This document shows, piece after piece, positions 3,716 to 12,517 of a stretch of 64,000 nt of DNA. The stretch is taken from positions 4,523,001 through 4,587,000 of the forward strand of contig NZ_CP022303.1 in the NCBI RefSeq assembly GCF_004216475.1, read 5' to 3'. Position numbers and translations under genes: made by a program. The notes beneath the pieces are model-generated. The model was given only the letters and a program-made list of their open reading frames with translations, was not told where the DNA came from and ran no database searches. Positions within the stretch are counted from its first letter, which is position 1; each line of letters starts with the position of its first letter. Source of the stretch: Thalassococcus sp. S3. Its GTDB lineage: Bacteria > Pseudomonadota > Alphaproteobacteria > Rhodobacterales > Rhodobacteraceae.

Positions 3716-4396
3716 ATGGATTCCGGATCGAACCTCGCCAACGATATTATCGCTTCTGACCGCCAGCATGTCTGGCATCATCTCACACAGCACAGCGTAT
3801 TCGAGACCGCCGACACGCCGGTCTTTGTCCGTGGCGAGGGGCTTCATGTCTGGGATGCCGACGGGCGTGAATATATCGATGCTGTCGCAGGCGGGATGTG
3901 AACCGTGAATGTCGGCTAGGGCCGAACGTCGATTGCCGACGCTGTGCGCGAACAACTTGCCACGCTCAATTTCTATTCCGGGGCTGCGGGGTCGGAGCCG
4001 GGAGAAAAATTCGCAAAGCGGCTTTTGGAGAAAATGCCAGGTCTTTCGCGGCTTTACTTCACAACGTCCGGCTCGGAAGCGAATGAAAAAGTCTACAAGA
4101 TGGTGCGCCAGATTTCGCAGCAGAAACGTGACGGGAAGAAGAGCAATTCTGTACCGGGATCGTGCCGTGAACAGGGCGTGCTGATCGGTGCGTCGAACCG
4201 CAGCATGGCCGGATTTAACAACACGTTGCTGCTGAGCCCGGCCCTCGTCTGCACGCGCGAGAACGTGGACAGCATCGTGAATGCTATCGATACGGCGCTG
4301 ACGCATATCTTTGCCCCTCAGCCGGACGAGGACGACGCGTTCGAGGATTTCGACCTCGATGATATCGAGGTGGTCGAGAGCCGCGTCTTCGCTTGA
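3716..4396 (+). pseudogene. tpa: decayed taurine:pyruvate-type aminotransferase (class III, PLP)
   Basis: The ATG at 3716 has a good GGGAG site 6 nt upstream. The first 60 codons encode a class III aminotransferase N-terminus (VWDADGREYIDAVAGGM). In the same frame, a TGA at 3899-3901 stands where family members have Trp (GGxWTVNVGYG), and a TAG at 3917-3919 where they have Tyr. The frame then continues as RTSIADAVREQL, and the YFTTSGSEANEKVYKM cofactor region is intact to about 4130. Around 4140-4165 the family residues ILYRDR are read in the next frame. The sequence then jumps straight to the C-terminal GVLIGASNRS...GFNNTLLLSPAL segment, so some 280-300 codons including the PLP lysine are missing. 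Two nonsense codons, a frameshift and a large deletion make it certainly dead. The taurine:pyruvate assignment rests on remembered similarity of the N- and C-terminal segments. Confidence 0.85.
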
Positions 4397-4447: not shown

Positions 4448-5849
4448 ATGACCACGTGTTCGCAGACAAATCCATTGATGCAGAGCGGCGCGCCCTGGAG
4501 ATTGGCCGGAGTTTTCTGCGCGGCAACGTGGATGGCACCGTCGTGGACATCACCCATGCGTGACCGGCAAGCTTCCCTGCCCTGGCCGACACCGGTGTCG
4601 GAGAACTCGCAGCACTTGAGGCATATTGGCGCGACCACGGCAGCCAGCACAGTCGTTCGTCCGGTCCACGCTACTTTGGTTTTTCACCGGCGAAGTGACA
4701 CCGGCGGCGCTGACCTCAGATGTCCTTGTGCCGTATCTCGACCAGAATGTGGCGACAGAGCGACACTCGATCGCGGCCTACATCGAAGAGCTGTTACTGG
4801 CGCAGATGCTCGACCTCCTGAACCTGCCGAGGGAGGTTTTGTCGGGGGTTCTGATCACTGACACTTCGGCTGCGAACATGGCGTGCCTTGTCGGCGCCCG
4901 GCAAGGGTACGGACAGCGATCGGGTTATGACATCGCAGAAGACGGAATCGCTGGCGGGCCAAAGATCACGGTCTTTGCCGGAACGCCCCATACAAGTATC
5001 CACAAGGCACTGAGCACGCTAGGCCTAGGACCGCGGACGCTTTGCGAAGTGCCGAGCTTGCCTGGTCGCGAGACTATCGACACGGATGCTCTGGCGGCGG
5101 CGCTCGAATGCCACCCGGACGGCCAGAAAATCGTGGTCGCAAGCGCGGGCAACGTGAACACGGGCGATTTCGATGCGCTTAACATCGTGGCGGACCTCGC
5201 GGAGCGGCACGGCGCGTGGCTTCATATCGACGGCGCGTTCGGAGCCTTTGCCCGCTGCATGCCAGACTATGTAGCACTGGCCGATGGGATGTAGCGGGCC
5301 GACAGCCTGTCCGTCGACCGTCACAAATGGCTCAACCTGCCGTATGATTGCAGGCTGGCATTCTCCAGACACATGGATATGCAAGAGAGGTCATTCTCCG
5401 CCGACGCGCCCTATGTGCCAAAGGAAGGCAAATTACCGGCCTTCATGAACCGCGCGGTCGAACAATCAAGGCGCTATCGGGCTCTGCCACTTTACATGAG
5501 CTTTCAAGCCTATGGACGTGAAGGCTTCCAACGGATCTTTGAGGAAAACTGCCGCTTCGCGCACCGTCTTTCCGAATGGGTGGACGCCACGTCCGATTTC
5601 GAGCACCTGGCCGAGACCCAGCTCAACATCATCTGCTTCCGTGGGCGTTATGCCGAGGCCGAAGCGGATGCGCAGAACCGCGCCCTTCTGAAACGCATCA
5701 ATGGCAGCAGGCGGCTGTTCATAACGCCAACGACCTACAATGGCCACTTCTGCTACCGCCTTGCCTTCAGCAATTGGCAAACGAGCGACAGCGACCTGGC
5801 AACCGTGACCGACACCTTGATCGAAGCAGATCGGAGCGCGACCGCATGA
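4448..5849 (+). pseudogene. decayed group II PLP decarboxylase
   Basis: Remains of a pyridoxal-dependent decarboxylase (DOPA/glutamate/cysteine-sulfinate decarboxylase family), preceded by a strong GGGAGGGG site at 4439-4446. The N-terminal part (ADKSIDAERRALEIG ... SSGPRYFGF) is read in one frame and is interrupted by a TGA at 4561-4563. A single T appears lost in the T run at 4680-4684, shifting the frame. The next segment contains FFTGEVTPAAL, DQNVATE and ASAGNVNTGDFDAL, then hits a TAG at 5292-5294. After that stop the same frame continues with the PLP-lysine motif DRHKWLNLPYDC and a full C-terminus to 5849. The ATG of the MNIO gene overlaps its stop (ATGA), so the MNIO gene was once co-translated with it. 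It may have decarboxylated a sulfur or acidic amino acid, but the substrate is unknown. Confidence 0.85.
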
Positions 5850-6826
5850 CACTCGACCTCGACATGAGCCCGACAGCGGCAGGCCGGCAGCCCGAGCCGA
5901 TCGTGGAGCCGCTGGGCATCGGCATCCAGTACAATCCCGAGATCCTCGACTGGTTTCCATTCGAAGAGTGCCAGGTAGACGCCTTCGAAGTATTGGTCGA
6001 TTCCTTCATGGGCGTGCTGGATGGTCCGTATCTGATGCTCCCCGGTTTCGCGGAGCGTCTGCAGGAGCTTGCCAAGAAATCTCCGCTGGTGGCGCATTCG
6101 AACTATGGCTGCGACTTTGGCTTCGGGCCATTGGAGGACACTCCGGCCGTGCGCCGTCATGTACCTCTCGCCAAAAAACTGAACTCACCCTGGGTCGTGA
6201 ACCATATGTTTTACGGCGATGACAGCTGGCTCGATATCTGGAGCAGCCCGGTGCAGTTCAGTCATGCCGAGCTTGACCGTCTGGCCGACCGCGCGGCACG
6301 CCTGCAAGAGCTTTATGGCATGCCGCTTGCGCATGAGAATGCCGCCTATTACCTGCCCTGCCCCGGCGGCGAGATGGAAGAGGCGGAGTTTTTGGCACGG
6401 CTTGTCGAGAAATCAGGCACCTATCTCCACGTCGATCTCCACAACATCTACGCCAACTCAATCAATCTCGAAGGTTTCTCGGTCCAGGGCTATCTGGATA
6501 CGATCCCGCTTGACCGCATTGTCAGCATGCATGTCGCGGGCGGAAGCTGGCGCGAAGGCGTCTATCACGATTGGCACGACAGCCCGGTTCCGGACGAAGT
6601 TTGGCAGATGCTTGAATACGTGCTGGCGCGAAGCCGCCCGGGTGGTGTTTTCCTCGAATACCAGGGCCAGGCGCATCACCCTGACACGCGCGTCATGGGC
6701 GAGGATGGCGACAAGGACTTAATTAAGCGCGACCTCGAGATCGCGATGTCGATCTGGGACAATACCTATGGCCCGGAAAGCCGTTACAGCAAACGCAAAA
6801 AGCTCAGGGAGACCGTTGTCGCATGA
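5846..6826 (+). CDS. DUF692 multinuclear non-heme iron oxygenase (MNIO), TglH/MbnB-like
   Basis: A 326-aa TIM-barrel MNIO. Visible metal-site residues are His84 (AHSNYG), His120 (VNHMF), Glu164 in AHENAAYY, Asp197/Asn200 in HVDLHNIYAN, His229 (SMHVAG), the HDWHDSPVPDEVW segment near 241-253 and Glu271 (FLEYQ). These enzymes use two or three Fe ions and O2 to rewrite Cys, Asp or Asn residues at the C-terminus or core of a peptide (oxazolone/thioamide formation in methanobactin, Cbeta excision in 3-thiaglutamate). The start at 5846 overlaps the dead decarboxylase stop. The gene overlaps the next one by ATGA at 6823. The neighbours, a partner protein and a small LanB, point to the scaffold-peptide (Tgl) type. 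The actual substrate is not known. Confidence 0.85.
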   Translation: MTLDLDMSPTAAGRQPEPIVEPLGIGIQYNPEILDWFPFEECQVDAFEVLVDSFMGVLDGPYLMLPGFAERLQELAKKSPLVAHSNYGCDFGFGPLEDTPAVRRHVPLAKKLNSPWVVNHMFYGDDSWLDIWSSPVQFSHAELDRLADRAARLQELYGMPLAHENAAYYLPCPGGEMEEAEFLARLVEKSGTYLHVDLHNIYANSINLEGFSVQGYLDTIPLDRIVSMHVAGGSWREGVYHDWHDSPVPDEVWQMLEYVLARSRPGGVFLEYQGQAHHPDTRVMGEDGDKDLIKRDLEIAMSIWDNTYGPESRYSKRKKLRETVVA

Positions 6827-7659
6827 GCCTCGCCGCACAAACCACCTGGGACGTCTGGCGCCGCATCCTGAAGGAACCGGCGCTGCAAGCCACCGTTAAG
6901 GATGGCAAGCTTGGCGCGAACCTGGCCGAAACCGGCTTTGCCGGCGATGAGGTCGATATCGCCCGTTACTATCAAACCCATTTCAAGGACGCGGCGTGGT
7001 TTGTAACCTCCTACCGTTTTCGGGTCGTAAGTGCCTTCGTCAACGCGGTGGAGCTGGGCGCACCGCTCACCCACCGGGTGCTTCTGGCCCACGGCCGAGA
7101 GATCCGGGACGTGGCAGAGGCCTATTACGACGATACCGGGTGGCTTGATGACGGGCCTTATGTCTACGGCCTGTGCGCCAAGATCCTTGACTGGCTGCCC
7201 GTTAGTCATTTGGGAAAAACCATCGCGCCACTGACCTCCGTTGCCAAGCTGGAAGCCGCCTCGGTGCAGGTCCTGCTCGATGCGACCGACCTTTCTCCTT
7301 CGGTCTGGTCAACACCGATCCCGGATCGGAACGCGCTTTTGGCGATGCTGGATGCAAGTCGAATGCCCGTTTGGACGGGTCGCGCGCGCGTGGTGGAAAC
7401 GGGCCACGACATCGCCCCGCTCTTTTTGGTCAAGGGCGCCACGACCGCGCCGATACCGGAACTGCCGAAAAAGACATACCATTTCGCGGCCTACCTGCCC
7501 GACCCGGAACAAAAGCACCGTTTCGCGCGGGTGTCCCCTGCGGATTTCGACGCTGCACAGCGGCTCGCAGCTGGGACGGCCAGCCCTGAATTTATCCGCA
7601 GCAATATCGGGTCTTACGCGAAGTTCGCCAAGATCCGCGCTGTTGGACGGGGTGACTGA
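6823..7659 (+). CDS. probable MNIO partner protein
   Basis: A 278-aa protein starting inside the MNIO stop codon, an arrangement typical of MNIO enzyme/partner pairs (TglH-TglI, MbnB-MbnC). Helical N-terminal half (WRRILKEPALQATVKDG, then DIARYYQTHF and RFRVVSAFVNAVELG) and a more mixed C-terminal half ending PEFIRSNIGSYAKFAKIR. No catalytic motif, signal peptide or membrane segment is visible. Partners of MNIOs bind the leader or scaffold peptide and present it to the iron site. I assign the role from position and size, not from a motif I can name, so structure comparison with TglI/MbnC is needed. Confidence 0.6.
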   Translation: MSLAAQTTWDVWRRILKEPALQATVKDGKLGANLAETGFAGDEVDIARYYQTHFKDAAWFVTSYRFRVVSAFVNAVELGAPLTHRVLLAHGREIRDVAEAYYDDTGWLDDGPYVYGLCAKILDWLPVSHLGKTIAPLTSVAKLEAASVQVLLDATDLSPSVWSTPIPDRNALLAMLDASRMPVWTGRARVVETGHDIAPLFLVKGATTAPIPELPKKTYHFAAYLPDPEQKHRFARVSPADFDAAQRLAAGTASPEFIRSNIGSYAKFAKIRAVGRGD

Positions 7660-7665
7660 CAAGCG

Positions 7666-9849
7666 ATGAAGCACGCCAATCTCCAACCTGACGTGGCGCG
7701 TGGCTGGACCGCATCCAGCGCGTTCTGGATGCGGTCGGCGGGATTTCCGCTGGCCTGGCTGGAAACCTGCGCCTGTCCGGTTGACCATCGGGATGAAGAC
7801 GCGTTGCGGGCATGGTTCACTCAGGATCGGATTGACCGGATCTCTGACTTCGTGGCCTTCTCGCGCGATCCGCTTGTGGCGGAGGCCATCGGGCTCTCGA
7901 ACCCGGATGCGCTTGACCGGATACGACGTTTGGCAGAGAGCGATCCCGGCAAGATCAACAGTCGCAACCGACAGCGACTGCGGCTGTACTGGATGTATAT
8001 GCAACAGCTTTGCGTCAAGAACGATACGTGTTCGTTCTTTGGCCCGATGAGCTGGGGCCGGATCGCAGCAGATGACGACGCCGATCGTTTCGACGTCGCG
8101 GACGCTATGCCCGATGCTGGCCGGCGCATCTTTGTCGAGCATTGGTTCGTGCAACGGATCGCCGATCAAATCTACTCAGACCCATCGGTGCAGGCGGCCT
8201 TGCCCGTTCGGATAAACAGCGGTGTGGCGATGACAGCGGACGGTTTGATCGTGCCGGTGGATCGGCACATAGCTCTGACGCCGAAGCAACTGGAACAAAT
8301 CCGCGAGATCGCGGAGCGTCAGGACGGCGCGTCGCCTGCGCGATGGGGCAACCCACCGCCCGCTGGCTTTCTGGCGAAGATGCGCCAGAAGCGCGTGATC
8401 GAAACCGGGATCCGCGTTCCAACGGTGATCAAGTATCCCTTGCACTGGCTTGCAGATTACGTTGCCGCTCACAGTCTGAACGATTGGTCGACCCGGCTGG
8501 CGGACCTGCAGGATATCGTTGCCAGCGCAGAGGAACGGACCGGCGCCGCGCGTGCCGATCAGTTAAGTCATCTCGCAGAGACCGCCGCGAACTGGGGCGT
8601 CACGCTGGACCGGCGCGCGGGCGAGATGTATGTCGGGCGCTTTCCCACCTACCAAGACGCGCGCCGCAAGGTCGATCTGACGCTCTCGCAGACGACGATG
8701 CGGGAAATCACACGCGATCTCGCGCCACTTCTTTCGGGCTATACCCGGCTTGTCGACCGGGTCGCCACGGCACTTGACGATGCCTACGCCCGTGTCCTGG
8801 CCAGCGCGGCGACCGGCGGTGAGACAAGCTTTCTTGCCATGCTGCGCGCATTGTCCGAGGCTGGTGATCTTCTGTCGTCAGTAGTGGAAACCGAACGCAA
8901 AGAGCTGCAGCGGCTCTGGGGCACCGCCAGGCATTTCGCAAAAGCCAGGCCAGAAGGGCAGGAGCTCTCCTTCACCTCAACGAGGCTTCGGGCGTTTTTT
9001 GATCAACTCGCTACCCCGACGCGCGTGATAAAGGAGCTGCCTTGGCGATATGTGCATTCCCCCGACATCATGCTGATGGCCAGGGATGCGCGTGCCGTGG
9101 CGGCCGGAGACTTCTTGGCCGTTATCGGAGAAACCCATCCCGGTATCTTCATGGTCGGGCATCCAGTCACCGCGCCCTTCCGCCCTCCGAACTTACCGAC
9201 TGAAGCGGAGTTGGGTCGGTTTTCGCATGGCCCTACACCGGTCATGTGCGACCCGCCAGAGAGCTATCAACGCTCCAACGTGAACCTGCCGGACGCCCCG
9301 CAGCTGATGGAGATAACCCTGCCCGGCCAGACCTCAAGCCTTGCCGCGGAGAAGGTGATCCGGGCCGCGGAGTGTCGGGTTGTCCAAACAAGAACCTGTG
9401 TCGAGCTTGTGGTCCCAGACCGCAACATTCGCGTACCGCTTCTGACTGCCATGGCGGGGCATCTTCACAAGGCGATCTTCGCGCTTGCGGGTGATCTTGC
9501 GGGCGGCTCAAGGGGCGAACGGCTTCGCGTCGGAAGAGTGATATTCCGGCGTCGGCAGTGGCGGATCGAAACTGCCAGCATGCCCAAGATCGAGCGCCCG
9601 GCGGAGATGCCGGACTGTTTTGCCGCACTTTGCCACTGGCGCGAGAAGGCGGGCCTGCCACGCTTCGCCTTTGCCGTGATCCCGGGGGAGCCGAAACCTG
9701 TTTATATTGATTTCCAAAACCCGTTGGCTGTCGATGCGCTCACAAAGCTCTCCAAATCCGTGCCCGCCTTCCGCCTGTCCGAGATGCTGCCCGCGCGGGA
9801 TGATCTGCTTTTCGCCGACCCAAAGGGCGCCTTCACCGCGGAGTGTTGA
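7666..9849 (+). CDS. small LanB-like, tRNA-dependent peptide-modifying enzyme (PEARL/TglB type), 3' end replaced by IS21
   Basis: A 727-aa protein matching the lantibiotic dehydratase N-terminal (glutamylation) fold. Near residues 100-131 it has RNRQRLRLYWMYMQQLC followed by KNDTCSFFGPMSWG, the characteristic R...R/FxPFG-like region of the family. No C-terminal elimination domain is present. It is therefore either a split dehydratase or a peptide aminoacyl-tRNA ligase (PEARL), which adds an amino acid from aminoacyl-tRNA to the C-terminus of a scaffold peptide. MNIO and partner genes immediately upstream favour PEARL. The protein stops at FTAEC, where family members typically continue with an SELR-like tail. 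Its TGA (9847-9849) lies inside the IS21 terminal repeat, so the last residues were lost to the insertion. Activity of the product is uncertain. Confidence 0.75.
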   Translation: MKHANLQPDVARGWTASSAFWMRSAGFPLAWLETCACPVDHRDEDALRAWFTQDRIDRISDFVAFSRDPLVAEAIGLSNPDALDRIRRLAESDPGKINSRNRQRLRLYWMYMQQLCVKNDTCSFFGPMSWGRIAADDDADRFDVADAMPDAGRRIFVEHWFVQRIADQIYSDPSVQAALPVRINSGVAMTADGLIVPVDRHIALTPKQLEQIREIAERQDGASPARWGNPPPAGFLAKMRQKRVIETGIRVPTVIKYPLHWLADYVAAHSLNDWSTRLADLQDIVASAEERTGAARADQLSHLAETAANWGVTLDRRAGEMYVGRFPTYQDARRKVDLTLSQTTMREITRDLAPLLSGYTRLVDRVATALDDAYARVLASAATGGETSFLAMLRALSEAGDLLSSVVETERKELQRLWGTARHFAKARPEGQELSFTSTRLRAFFDQLATPTRVIKELPWRYVHSPDIMLMARDARAVAAGDFLAVIGETHPGIFMVGHPVTAPFRPPNLPTEAELGRFSHGPTPVMCDPPESYQRSNVNLPDAPQLMEITLPGQTSSLAAEKVIRAAECRVVQTRTCVELVVPDRNIRVPLLTAMAGHLHKAIFALAGDLAGGSRGERLRVGRVIFRRRQWRIETASMPKIERPAEMPDCFAALCHWREKAGLPRFAFAVIPGEPKPVYIDFQNPLAVDALTKLSKSVPAFRLSEMLPARDDLLFADPKGAFTAEC

Positions 9850-9869
9850 TTGTCACTGAGAACTGACCC
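9846..9869 (+). repeat. IS21 left terminal inverted repeat
   Basis: The 24 bases beginning TTGATTGTCACTGAG and ending CTGACCC are the exact reverse complement of 12494-12517. The TGA in this repeat is the stop codon of the LanB-like gene. Confidence 0.9.
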
Positions 9870-9879
9870 TTTGCCCCGC

Positions 9880-9903
9880 TTGATTGTCACTGAGACTTGA
9901 CCC
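9880..9903 (+). repeat. internal copy of the IS21 terminal repeat
   Basis: Same 24-base sequence as the left end with two mismatches (GAGACTTGACCC in place of GAGAACTGACCC). It is probably a second transposase-binding site, as in other IS21 elements. A degenerate counterpart lies at about 12469-12486. Confidence 0.8.
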
Positions 9904-10771
9904 ATGAGAACACACTGCGCCAACGCATTCGTTGGGGAGATTTTGAGTGATCGACATGGGATTTTTGAGTGTTATTCGACGGTGGGCATGACGTGAGAAG
10001 GTGCCAATTCGTGAGATTGCCCGGCGCACGGGCTTGTCTCGCAACACCATCAAGAAGTACCTGCGCGAAGGTGCTATAGAACCCAAGTTCAAGACGCCTC
10101 CGAGGCCGAGCAAATTGGATCCATATGCTGACCGGTTGTCAGCGTGGCTTTTGGCCCAGACACGCAAGTCTCGCAAAGAACGGCGGACGGTGAAGCAGAT
10201 GCACGCGGATCTTGTGAAGCTGGGATATGATGGCTCTTACGAACGGGTTGCGGCTTTTGCCCGTGCATGGCGTGCGGACCGGCACCGTGCTGAGCAGACG
10301 ACGGGGTGCGGCACCTACGTGCCTTTGGTGTTTCAACCTGGAGAGGCGTTCCAGTTCGATTGGAGTGAGGATTGGGCCAATATCGCAGGCGAGCGGGTCA
10401 AGCTGCAGGTCGCCCATATCAAGCTGTCGCACAGCCGAGCATTCCTGGTCCGGGCGTATCCGCTGCAAACGCACGAGATGCTGTTCGACGCCCATTGGCA
10501 TGCCTTCCGCGTCTTTGGCGGGGTGCCGGGTCGTGGGATCTACGACAATATGAAGACGGTCGTGGACCGTGTTGGCAAAGGCAAACAGCGCGATATCAAT
10601 GCACGCTTCAAAGCCATGTCCAGCCACTACGTGTTTGAGCCTGAGTTTTGCAATCCAGCTGCGGGTTGGGAGAAAGGTCAGGTTGAGAAGAATGTGCAGG
10701 ATGCGCGCAACCGCATGCGGCAGGTCATGCCGGTCTTCAAGGACCTGGCTGAGCTGAACCAGTGGTTTGAG

Positions 10772-10795
10772 GATCGTCACGCCAAAGGCGCGCTT
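10772..10795. repeat. short palindromic unit at the istA frameshift (type B)
   Basis: The stretch CGTCACGCCAAAGGCGCGC lies exactly where the istA frame breaks. A near-identical unit, CGTCGCGCCAAAGGCGCGC, is at about 11499-11517. Both have a CGCC-AAA-GGCG core. Insertion boundaries are less certain than for the istB elements. Confidence 0.5.
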
Positions 10796-11492
10796 CCAGC
10801 ACGACATCGCGCTTTGGGATGAGACACCGCACAAGGTCTTGCCTGGTTCCATCGCTGACGCATGGGAGGCTGAGAAGCCGATGCTGATGGCGCTGCCGCC
10901 TGCCTTTGACGGCTTCACAGAGCATAGCAAACGGGTGTCCCCGACATGCCTGATCACCTTCGAACGCAATCGCTATAGCGTGCCTGCCAGCTTTGCGAAC
11001 CGTCGGGTCAGCCTGCATGTCTACCCTGAGCGTTTGGTGGTCGTGGCCGAAGGGCAAACAGTTTGTGAGCACGCACGGATCATTGAGCGGTCACATCGCA
11101 AGCCCGGCAAGGTCATCTATGACTGGCGTCACTATCTGGCTGTCATCCAACGCAAACCGGGCGCGCTTCGCAACGGTGCGCCGTTCACAGAGATGCCTGT
11201 AGCCTTCCGTCAATTGCAGGATCACATGCTGTGCAAGGACGGCGGCGACCGAGAGATGGTCGACATCCTGTCATTGGTTCTTCAGCACAATGAAGAGGAT
11301 GTTTTGCGGGCAGTGGAACTGGCCCTCGAAGCAGGCGTTCCCACCAAAACGCATATCCTGAACCTGTTGCACCGATTGATCGACCGCAAACCGACAGAGC
11401 ACCCCGAGGTCGATCCACCAAAGGCGCTGGTATTGCAAACGACGCCAGAAGCAAACGTCAATCGCTATGACGGCCTGAGACGGACTGGGGAG

Positions 11493-11518
11493 AAGCGCGT
11501 CGCGCCAAAGGCGCGCGC
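11493..11518. repeat. second type B palindromic unit near the end of istA
   Basis: A GC-rich palindrome with a CGCGCC-AAA-GGCGCG core in the last codons of istA, sharing 18 of 19 bases with the unit at the upstream frameshift. It changes the expected IstA C-terminus. Confidence 0.5.
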
Positions 11519-11827
11519 ATCGTGAAACGGGGGCGTCATGACCCAGCCGGAGCCTCCATCGTCATCATGCTGCACAGCCTCAAGCTCTACGGCATGGCAA
11601 ATGCGGTCGATGATCCGGTCGCCCAGGGGGCGCCAGCGTTTGAAGCCGCAACGCCAATGCTGTCGCAATTGCTCAAGGCTGAAATCGCGGAACGCGAGGT
11701 GCGGTCCATTGCCTACCACACCAAGGTGGCGCGCTTCCCCGCATATAAAGACCTCACCGGCTTTGATTTTGCATCCGGTGAGATCAACGAGGCGACAGTG
11801 CGGCAGCTGCATCGATGCGAGTTCATC

Positions 11828-11867
11828 CATTGCCCGGCAGTCGTTTGCACAGCAAACGATGAGAGGA
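11828..11867 (-). repeat. ~40-bp palindromic insertion element, copy 1 (type A)
   Basis: An insert between IstB residues CEFI and EAAEN. It is a palindrome with arms TCGTTTGC/GCAAACGA and an outer CATTGCCCGGCAG. It is in the opposite orientation to copies 2 and 3 and shares their CTGCCGGGCAATG and CCTCTC ends. The 40-bp length shifts the frame by one. Confidence 0.85.
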
Positions 11868-12080
11868 GAAGCGGCCGAGAACGTCGTGCTAATCGGCGGC
11901 CCCGGAACAGGCAAAAGCCATACCGCTACAGCAATTGGCGTGCAGCCGATCGAACATCACAGGCGCAAGGTCCGCTTCTTCTCAACCGTGGAACTCGTCA
12001 ATGCACTGGAACAGGAGAAAGCACTCGGCAAAGCCGGGAAGATGGCTGAGATGCTCACCAAGGCTGACTTGGTCATCCTG

Positions 12081-12121
12081 CCCTCCCGGCAGATTGCTGC
12101 GCAATCGCCTGCCGGGTAATA
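12081..12121 (+). repeat. ~41-bp palindromic insertion element, copy 2 (type A)
   Basis: An insert between IstB residues LVIL and DELGYLPF. It begins CCCTCCCGGCAG, has an ATTGC/GCAAT inner stem and ends CTGCCGGGTAATA. Confidence 0.85.
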
Positions 12122-12256
12122 GACGAGCTCGGTTACCTGCCGTTCAGTGCGTCCGGCGGAGCGCTCCTCTTCCATCTGCTCAGCAAGCTCTATGAACGCA
12201 CCAGCGTGATCATCACCACCAACCTCAGCTTCTCAGAATGGGCACAGGTCTTTGGC

Positions 12257-12299
12257 CCCTCTCGGCAGATTTGCTTCGCAAATCGCCTGCCGGGCAATG
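12257..12299 (+). repeat. ~43-bp palindromic insertion element, copy 3 (type A)
   Basis: An insert between IstB residues VFG and DAKM. It begins CCCTCTCGGCAG, has the inner stem ATTTGC-TTC-GCAAAT and ends CTGCCGGGCAATG. Compensatory differences between copies keep the stem paired. Confidence 0.85.
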
Positions 12300-12493
12300 G
12301 ACGCCAAGATGACCACCGCGCTGCTCGACCGGCTCACACATCGCTGCCACATCCTGGAAACCGGAAACGACAGCTACCGCTTCAAAGCCAGTGCCAAGGC
12401 TGCAAAGAAAACAGAAAAGGAGGCCACAACATTGACCGCGTCATAAACCACAACGCATAAGCAAAGTTGGGTCAAATCTCGGCGAAAAAACCG

Positions 12494-12517
12494 GGTCAGT
12501 TCTCAGTGACAATCAAT
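12494..12517 (-). repeat. IS21 right terminal inverted repeat
   Basis: Exact reverse complement of the left end at 9846-9869. Confidence 0.9.

Follow-up and report, generated by a model that had tools for sequence, protein, structure and literature searches.

A pearlin-type carrier at the tail of a class III aminotransferase: a decayed locus of Thalassococcus sp. S3 that very probably belongs to a new 3-thia-amino-acid pathway sub-type

The pearlin (3-thia-amino-acid) systems closest to the locus described here are the tgl cluster of Pseudomonas syringae ES4326 (3-thiaglutamate; TglA, TglB, TglE, TglF, TglG, TglH and TglI) and the tmo cluster of Tistrella mobilis (3-thiahomoleucine). Pearlin carriers described to date are free peptides of about 50-70 residues with a dispensable N-terminal part (PMC9303977). 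Here we examine 64,000 nucleotides of Thalassococcus sp. S3 (the window, meaning that whole stretch), which very probably hold a decayed member of a new pearlin sub-type in which the carrier is the tail of a class III aminotransferase. The identities of the genes, their conserved catalytic residues, the tail that three intact fusions share and the decayed state of the window copy can be read directly from the sequences. The locus shares with the tgl cluster homologues of TglH, TglI and the peptide aminoacyl-tRNA ligase (PEARL), as well as the carrier core; an intact relative, L003, also shares the CmoA-like, second methyltransferase and M50-type genes. It departs from that cluster in that the carrier is fused to an aminotransferase, the PEARL sits on its own branch and the window copy is dead; a pyridoxal phosphate (PLP) decarboxylase and a major facilitator superfamily (MFS) gene are extra here, and occur too in three of the ten scanned Pseudomonas loci (L017, L022 and L029). 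Compared with the tmo cluster (L007/L026, T. mobilis strain KA081020-065), the window PEARL is 30% identical, the TmoH-like multinuclear non-heme iron-dependent oxidative enzyme (MNIO) 66% and the TmoI-like partner 30%; unlike that cluster, L003 has a CmoA-like enzyme, a fused carrier and no radical S-adenosylmethionine enzyme among its nine labelled genes.

Three further systems share single traits. Alphaproteobacterial taurine- or hypotaurine-pyruvate aminotransferases (Tpa; names as given by the sources), listed as untailed matches, are 67-73% identical over the body; the tailed clade differs from them by the added carrier of 18 residues and by 15 clade-specific residues. In borosins of the omphalotin type the ribosomal substrate is likewise the C-terminal tail of an enzyme, yet that enzyme methylates its own tail, whereas the tail described here would serve other enzymes as a carrier that can be used again. 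Daptide pathways combine a class III aminotransferase and a peptidase in the making of a ribosomally synthesized and post-translationally modified peptide, the aminotransferase lying near the precursor as here, and the L003 M50-type protein matches the daptide metalloprotease model at 56.5 bits (cut-off 300); however, the L003 aminotransferase stays under the cut-off of the daptide aminotransferase model (234.8 bits against 450), and the available portions of the daptide sources name neither a PEARL nor an MNIO. PEARL tagging of foreign proteins through an engineered C-terminal tag has been published (PMC11962472). A literature search that covered few subscription journals returned no account of an enzyme bearing a fused pearlin carrier. 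To our knowledge, this would be the first case in which a carrier has been cut by nature to its minimal recognised block and set on a metabolic enzyme, and the fusion lineage can be seen as the natural counterpart of laboratory PEARL tagging.

The window features that carry this reading are the following (aa, amino acids; ORF, open reading frame; IS, insertion sequence):
4259..4393, + strand: C-terminal carrier domain of TglA type on the aminotransferase remnant (NF038377; like cores in P0001-P0003 and in 21 of 21 PEARL loci)
5846..6826, + strand: TglH-type MNIO (DUF692), 326 aa, ORF intact (profile and structure-sequence matches, ligand alignment)
6823..7659, + strand: TglI-type partner, 278 aa, ORF intact (NCBIfam TglI, 8hci chain C)
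7666..9849, + strand: PEARL (small LanB), 727 aa, 3' end cut by an IS (Pfam, tree, residue alignment)

The carrier core forms the last 18 residues of the aminotransferase ORF 3944-4396, FEDFDLDDIEVVESRVFA (window 4340-4393, with the stop codon at 4394-4396). Along this ORF, residues 2-67 match class III aminotransferases (Pfam Aminotran_3, 4.1e-10), residues 65-122 correspond to positions 393-450 of the 451-position aminotransferase model NF005812 (1.1e-18), and residues 106-150 match the TglA carrier model NF038377, which scores 3.8e-11 and 43.7 bits on the ORF (cut-off 45) and, in a whole-genome search, 7.1e-11 and 45.7 bits, above that cut-off. FDLD followed by 11 residues and a terminal Ala is present in the window tail and in the three intact fusions P0001-P0003; relative to the Pseudomonas cores, the window tail has Val at the place of Ile44 and Arg at that of Lys47. 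The minimal TglHI substrate is a 19-mer in which Cys follows the 18 C-terminal residues of TglA; for TglB, the 12 C-terminal residues are required. Within the F[N/D]LD motif, Phe36 and Leu38 are critical; Asp40, Ile41 and Ile44 also contribute, and insertions or deletions close to the C terminus lower or abolish activity (PMC9016710). The window tail is the same 18-residue block, with the same spacing, as in this minimal substrate.

The intact fusions number three, P0001-P0003, of 480-482 aa and all tailed. P0001 comes from a metagenome-assembled genome (MAG) labelled Rhodobacter, whereas P0002 (82% identical to P0001) and P0003 (77-78%) lie on contigs of at most 10,090 and 1,728 bp. When P0001 was used as query, 8000 proteins were scored and 120 of them listed; among the matches listed, two more are tailed (P0002 and P0003), the longer P0015 and P0073 have no carrier core in their sequences as read, and the other 115 have 448-465 residues and were mostly judged by length, four being read and two more seen aligned. 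Source names among these matches include taurine-pyruvate and hypotaurine-pyruvate aminotransferase. Searches with the tail only, among proteins of about 265-890 residues, retrieved P0001 (one of eight candidates) and P0003 and P0002 (two of 26), and in that size range these word-based searches showed the carrier tail on enzymes of this class only. The PF00202 family covers P0001 (6e-85) and is precomputed on P0002 and P0003. In a tree of the aminotransferase bodies with tails removed, the three tailed proteins split from 29 untailed ones with 100/100 support, and at 15 positions a residue is common to all three and found in none of the 29. Lys286, which we take by homology to be the PLP lysine, is invariant in all 32 rows. 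The AlphaFold monomer of P0001 (mean predicted local distance difference test score, pLDDT, 73.9) has its last aminotransferase helix at 439-457, and the tail (460-482) lies under pLDDT 50.

In L003 (identical in record to L011 and drawn from the MAG labelled Rhodobacter sp.), the fusion, of 509 aa with the longest start and 482 aa as databank entry P0001, heads a nine-gene operon whose members lie on one strand, overlapping or with short gaps: aminotransferase-carrier, decarboxylase, MNIO, partner, PEARL, MFS, CmoA-like enzyme, second methyltransferase and M50-type protein. Identity to the window is 87% for the MNIO, 71-72% for the partner and 66% for the PEARL. Carrier-model searches of whole genomes, in draws that overlap between family, order, class and phylum, found the carrier in the window genome and one other (G126) among 295 genomes of the family, in the own genome only among 390 of the order and among 398 of the phylum, and, among 385 of the class, in the own genome and in three genomes that belong to one other genus; in the genus of G126, one of two genomes has it. 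In G126, the genome of the L003 locus, the carrier ends an open frame of 515 codons, and no second carrier was matched by the model in either the window genome (G000) or G126.

The trio downstream of the tail was the starting point of an initial annotation, which had proposed a Tgl-like scaffold-peptide pathway from a DUF692 MNIO, an overlapping partner and a small LanB lacking the elimination domain; the ORFs and profile matches agree with these coordinates and identities. The MNIO ORF, which overlaps that of the partner by 4 bp, matches Pfam MbnB_TglH_ChrH (4.6e-42) and the solved P. syringae TglH (PDB 8hci chain D, 1.5e-133). It keeps ten of ten TglH positions, namely the nine iron ligands and Asn73 (residues 84-271; ligand positions from PMC10880893, with the HSN motif in the P. 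cerasi protein as anchor for the numbering), so that no conserved metal ligand is missing. The partner has no Pfam family and matches NCBIfam TglI (4.7e-30) and solved TglI (8hci chain C, 5.8e-24), and a profile built from 16 partners has 8hci_C as its sole match (9.7e-112). The LanB matches Pfam Lant_dehydr_N (1.6e-22, best stretch residues 67-355), with no Pfam match to an elimination domain. In a tree of 25 rows, in which some outgroups have long branches and an uncertain placement, the window and L003 proteins pair with 100/100 support inside the Tgl/Tmo PEARL clade (100/99), on a separate branch beside 15 Tgl/Tmo rows (93/91, support not starred), and eight other small or split LanB rows fall apart from that clade. 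Both the phylogeny and the ligand alignment, suggested earlier as checks, thus speak for a Tgl-like pathway. The equivalents of TglB Arg10 and Glu801 are kept in the window PEARL and that of Arg803 is lost, whereas nine other aligned PEARLs keep all three; position 542, a critical Glu according to a review, is Asp in ten of ten aligned rows (P. cerasi-based numbering).

Taken over from the characterised Tgl and Tmo enzymes (PMC9303977; PMC10491745), every chemical step of the pathway can be proposed by analogy. The PEARL would add Cys to the carrier tail, the TglHI pair would remove the β-carbon of the added Cys, the CmoA-like enzyme and the second methyltransferase would carboxymethylate the thiol, and the M50-type protease would free 3-thiaglutamate and regenerate the carrier. 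With its genes for a CmoA-like enzyme, a methyltransferase and an M50-type protein, the intact operon points to 3-thiaglutamate or a derivative, not to the wholly undescribed product that had first been envisaged. While a residue is bound to the carrier its α-amine is locked in an amide, so that, on chemical grounds, the fused aminotransferase could not act on it there; the enzyme must act after release, on something else, or not at all. Glutamate decarboxylase followed by γ-aminobutyric acid (GABA) transaminase is the sequence to which we liken the decarboxylase and aminotransferase of this locus. In such a GABA-shunt-like route, the PLP decarboxylase and then the fused aminotransferase would process released 3-thiaglutamate, and the fusion would keep the product close to the enzyme that consumes it; that the two act in this sequence, with the fusion holding the product nearby, is the role we prefer for them, possible without being probable. 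The full picture of an enzyme-carrier chimera, whose tail would receive an amino acid, hold it while it is rewritten and let it go before the same aminotransferase takes the product, is put forward as a tentative and somewhat doubtful proposal. If it were true, the chimera and the decarboxylase would turn Cys into a so far unknown sulfur analogue of a GABA-shunt product. More generally, the two enzymes may be those that use the 3-thia-amino acid product, and as such would give a handle on what 3-thia-amino acids are for.

Several points weigh against this reading. Because its score (104.9 bits) is far under the 450-bit equivalog cut-off of TglI, the partner is a distant relative. The intact fusions are only three, with genomic context seen for one, a MAG, and the L003 fusion tail itself reaches 34.7 bits with NF038377 (cut-off 45). 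Three further L003 proteins are also weakly typed: the CmoA-like protein reaches 127.7 bits (family cut-off 193.3), the M50 match 22.3 bits (cut-off 27.2), and the second methyltransferase matches general methyltransferase families only. Searches of the window genome for M50 and CmoA-like homologues came back empty, and, being run without a positive control, such results prove nothing. The AlphaFold model of P0001 is uninformative on the active site, since stretches of the body (e.g., 22-46, 54-68, 287-293 and 318-327) also lie under pLDDT 50, and the substrates proposed for the aminotransferase and decarboxylase are candidates.

The carrier might also work as such while the aminotransferase domain merely raises solubility or expression, without a role in the pathway. 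The small requirements of the PEARL (last 12 residues) and of TglHI (18+1 residues) would allow this (PMC9016710), as would the modification by a PEARL of enhanced green fluorescent protein, lysozyme and maltose-binding protein bearing a C-terminal tag (PMC11962472); of the 21 PEARL loci, moreover, 20 showed no such aminotransferase within the fetched stretch. Yet three fusions, 77-82% identical to P0001, conserve the body together with the tail, and the 15 own residues of the tailed clade, some at sites invariant in the 29 untailed relatives, suggest an altered substrate, not a lost function. With the presumed PLP lysine invariant as well, we regard a mere passenger as rather unlikely. A regulatory or targeting tag, on which the modified residue would stay and either alter activity or bring the enzyme to a membrane protease, draws on the resemblance of an L003 gene to intramembrane metalloproteases and on PMC9303977, which leaves open a thiahemiaminal-bearing peptide as the wanted product; but the L003 operon retains release-protease and MFS genes, as a free-product pathway might, and the carrier-model search gave no stand-alone carrier in G126, which makes such a tag improbable.

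That the tail reflects a chance continuation of the frame or an assembly artefact might be argued from the pseudogene state of the window copy and from the sole intact case with context being a MAG. Nevertheless, three intact proteins share the tail, it scores 3.8e-11 against a curated carrier model, and the window genome (four contigs, listed as 100% complete) independently shows the same gene order; a fortuitous frame was rejected on the first two of these grounds, and an artefact of either kind is very improbable. Least probable, to the point of being barely credible, is the split class I lanthipeptide dehydratase that had been named as an alternative for the LanB protein. Its Pfam label, Lant_dehydr_N, would fit, but the tree places it with Tgl/Tmo, phmmer gave no match at E<=10 between the window PEARL and the long LanB ORFs of four loci, no elimination-domain match was obtained, and a carrier and a TglHI pair are present. 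We rejected a dehydratase identity on the first three of these counts, and retain an aminotransferase-borne pearlin carrier as the preferred reading.

The decay of the window copy is seen in four further features:
3716..3898, + strand: aminotransferase pseudogene, 5' piece (class III; aligned to the intact L003 gene)
3944..4396, + strand: aminotransferase remnant running into the carrier tail (Aminotran_3, NF005812, blastn pieces)
4456..5849, + strand: pseudogene of a group II PLP decarboxylase (two pieces matched by Pfam Pyridoxal_deC; aligned with its intact L003 counterpart)
9846..12516, + strand: IS21-like element, istA split into two ORFs (perfect 24-bp terminal inverted repeats)

After the aminotransferase 5' piece come in-frame stops (TGA 3899-3901, TAG 3917-3919), and relative to L003 772 bp are deleted at 4162/4163; the decarboxylase carries a TGA at 4561-4563, a 1-nt frameshift near 4683 and a TAG at 5292-5294. 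The two upstream genes are thus both real and broken, as the initial annotation had it. The LanB ORF, for its part, is incomplete at its 3' end: the stop codon and the last base of the last codon are supplied by the IS21-like element, whose insertion removes the Arg803 equivalent (inverted repeats 9846-9869 / 12493-12516; no direct repeats seen at its borders on inspection by eye). That annotation had overlooked the carrier at the aminotransferase C terminus and that the window copy is non-functional. Counterparts of TglE, TglF and TglG are absent beside the window trio and have homologues in L003; for the second methyltransferase, the window genome gives a weak generic methyltransferase match only. 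A deletion adjacent to the IS may have taken away the operon genes that the window lacks. Compared with L003, each of the eight pieces, intact or broken, has a dN/dS ratio (NG86) within 0.05-0.17, so that the decay is recent relative to divergence and the ratio cannot here separate living from dead genes. The window cluster is very probably non-functional, and its PEARL, without the Arg803 equivalent, marks it as a remnant of a pearlin pathway, not a working member; the idea that the MNIO, partner and PEARL are still active in this strain was rejected for the pathway as a whole, given the truncated PEARL and the missing genes.

A wider scan with a pattern from the MNIO alignment, over one genome per species in 84,980 species, gave 36 loci and may be incomplete. 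PEARLs were labelled by phmmer in 21 of them, and a carrier-core pattern, which we built from known cores, occurs in all 21 and in none of the 15 PEARL-less loci; a looser motif scan also gave four unrelated ORFs (L016, L023, L024 and L026), dismissed by eye and excluded by the stricter recount. Twenty of these loci encode the core on an ORF of 48-170 residues, and L011 alone has it on an aminotransferase. M50-type genes follow the same split (21/21 and 0/15), CmoA-like and second methyltransferase genes occur in 17 of the 21, and decarboxylase and MFS genes in four (L011, L017, L022 and L029). In the three Pseudomonas tgl loci the latter pair stands directly upstream of the CmoA-like gene (L017 4154-6841, L022 4083-6747, L029 4063-6750), with the decarboxylase of L017 (P. 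cerasi) split into two ORFs. The tgl genes named in PMC10880893 are seven, without decarboxylase and MFS; because these recur in three of ten Pseudomonas tgl loci, the published list may lack downstream steps.

The 15 PEARL-less loci (L010 13995-18290, L015, L030-L039 and L041-L044) hold a sister MNIO sub-type, 47-61% identical to the window and without PEARL or TglA-type carrier. A CmoA-like gene is nearby in 13 of them, and a partner-like ORF, roughly 870-890 aa long, occurs in several; its L010 version is annotated as a methyltransferase-domain protein. Possibly this sub-type makes another MNIO product from an unknown precursor. A Burkholderia plasmid MNIO was set aside as being of the other sub-type, without PEARL, and no relatives were found on viral contigs.

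Beyond the IS, an NRPS (nonribosomal peptide synthetase) region occupies window 12912-33138, with condensation-adenylation-carrier, adenylation-carrier-FkbM methyltransferase, lone condensation and lone carrier proteins, two PhyH oxygenases, a second class III aminotransferase, an LCM methyltransferase, a 2OG-Fe oxygenase, a GMC oxidoreductase and an MFS protein. The trio had at first been tied to this region. Pfam searches of 12 ORFs flanking the L003 operon (contig 35,000-79,093; smaller ORFs not included) gave no adenylation or condensation domains, and a functional link finds no support there, though the window strain might have had one in the past. Elsewhere, on Streptomyces plasmids, a small LanB lies beside adenylation-domain and MbtH genes (L050 1692-9292, also with an acyl-carrier gene; L051 6959-9187), and these two proteins are PEARL-like enzymes in NRPS settings.

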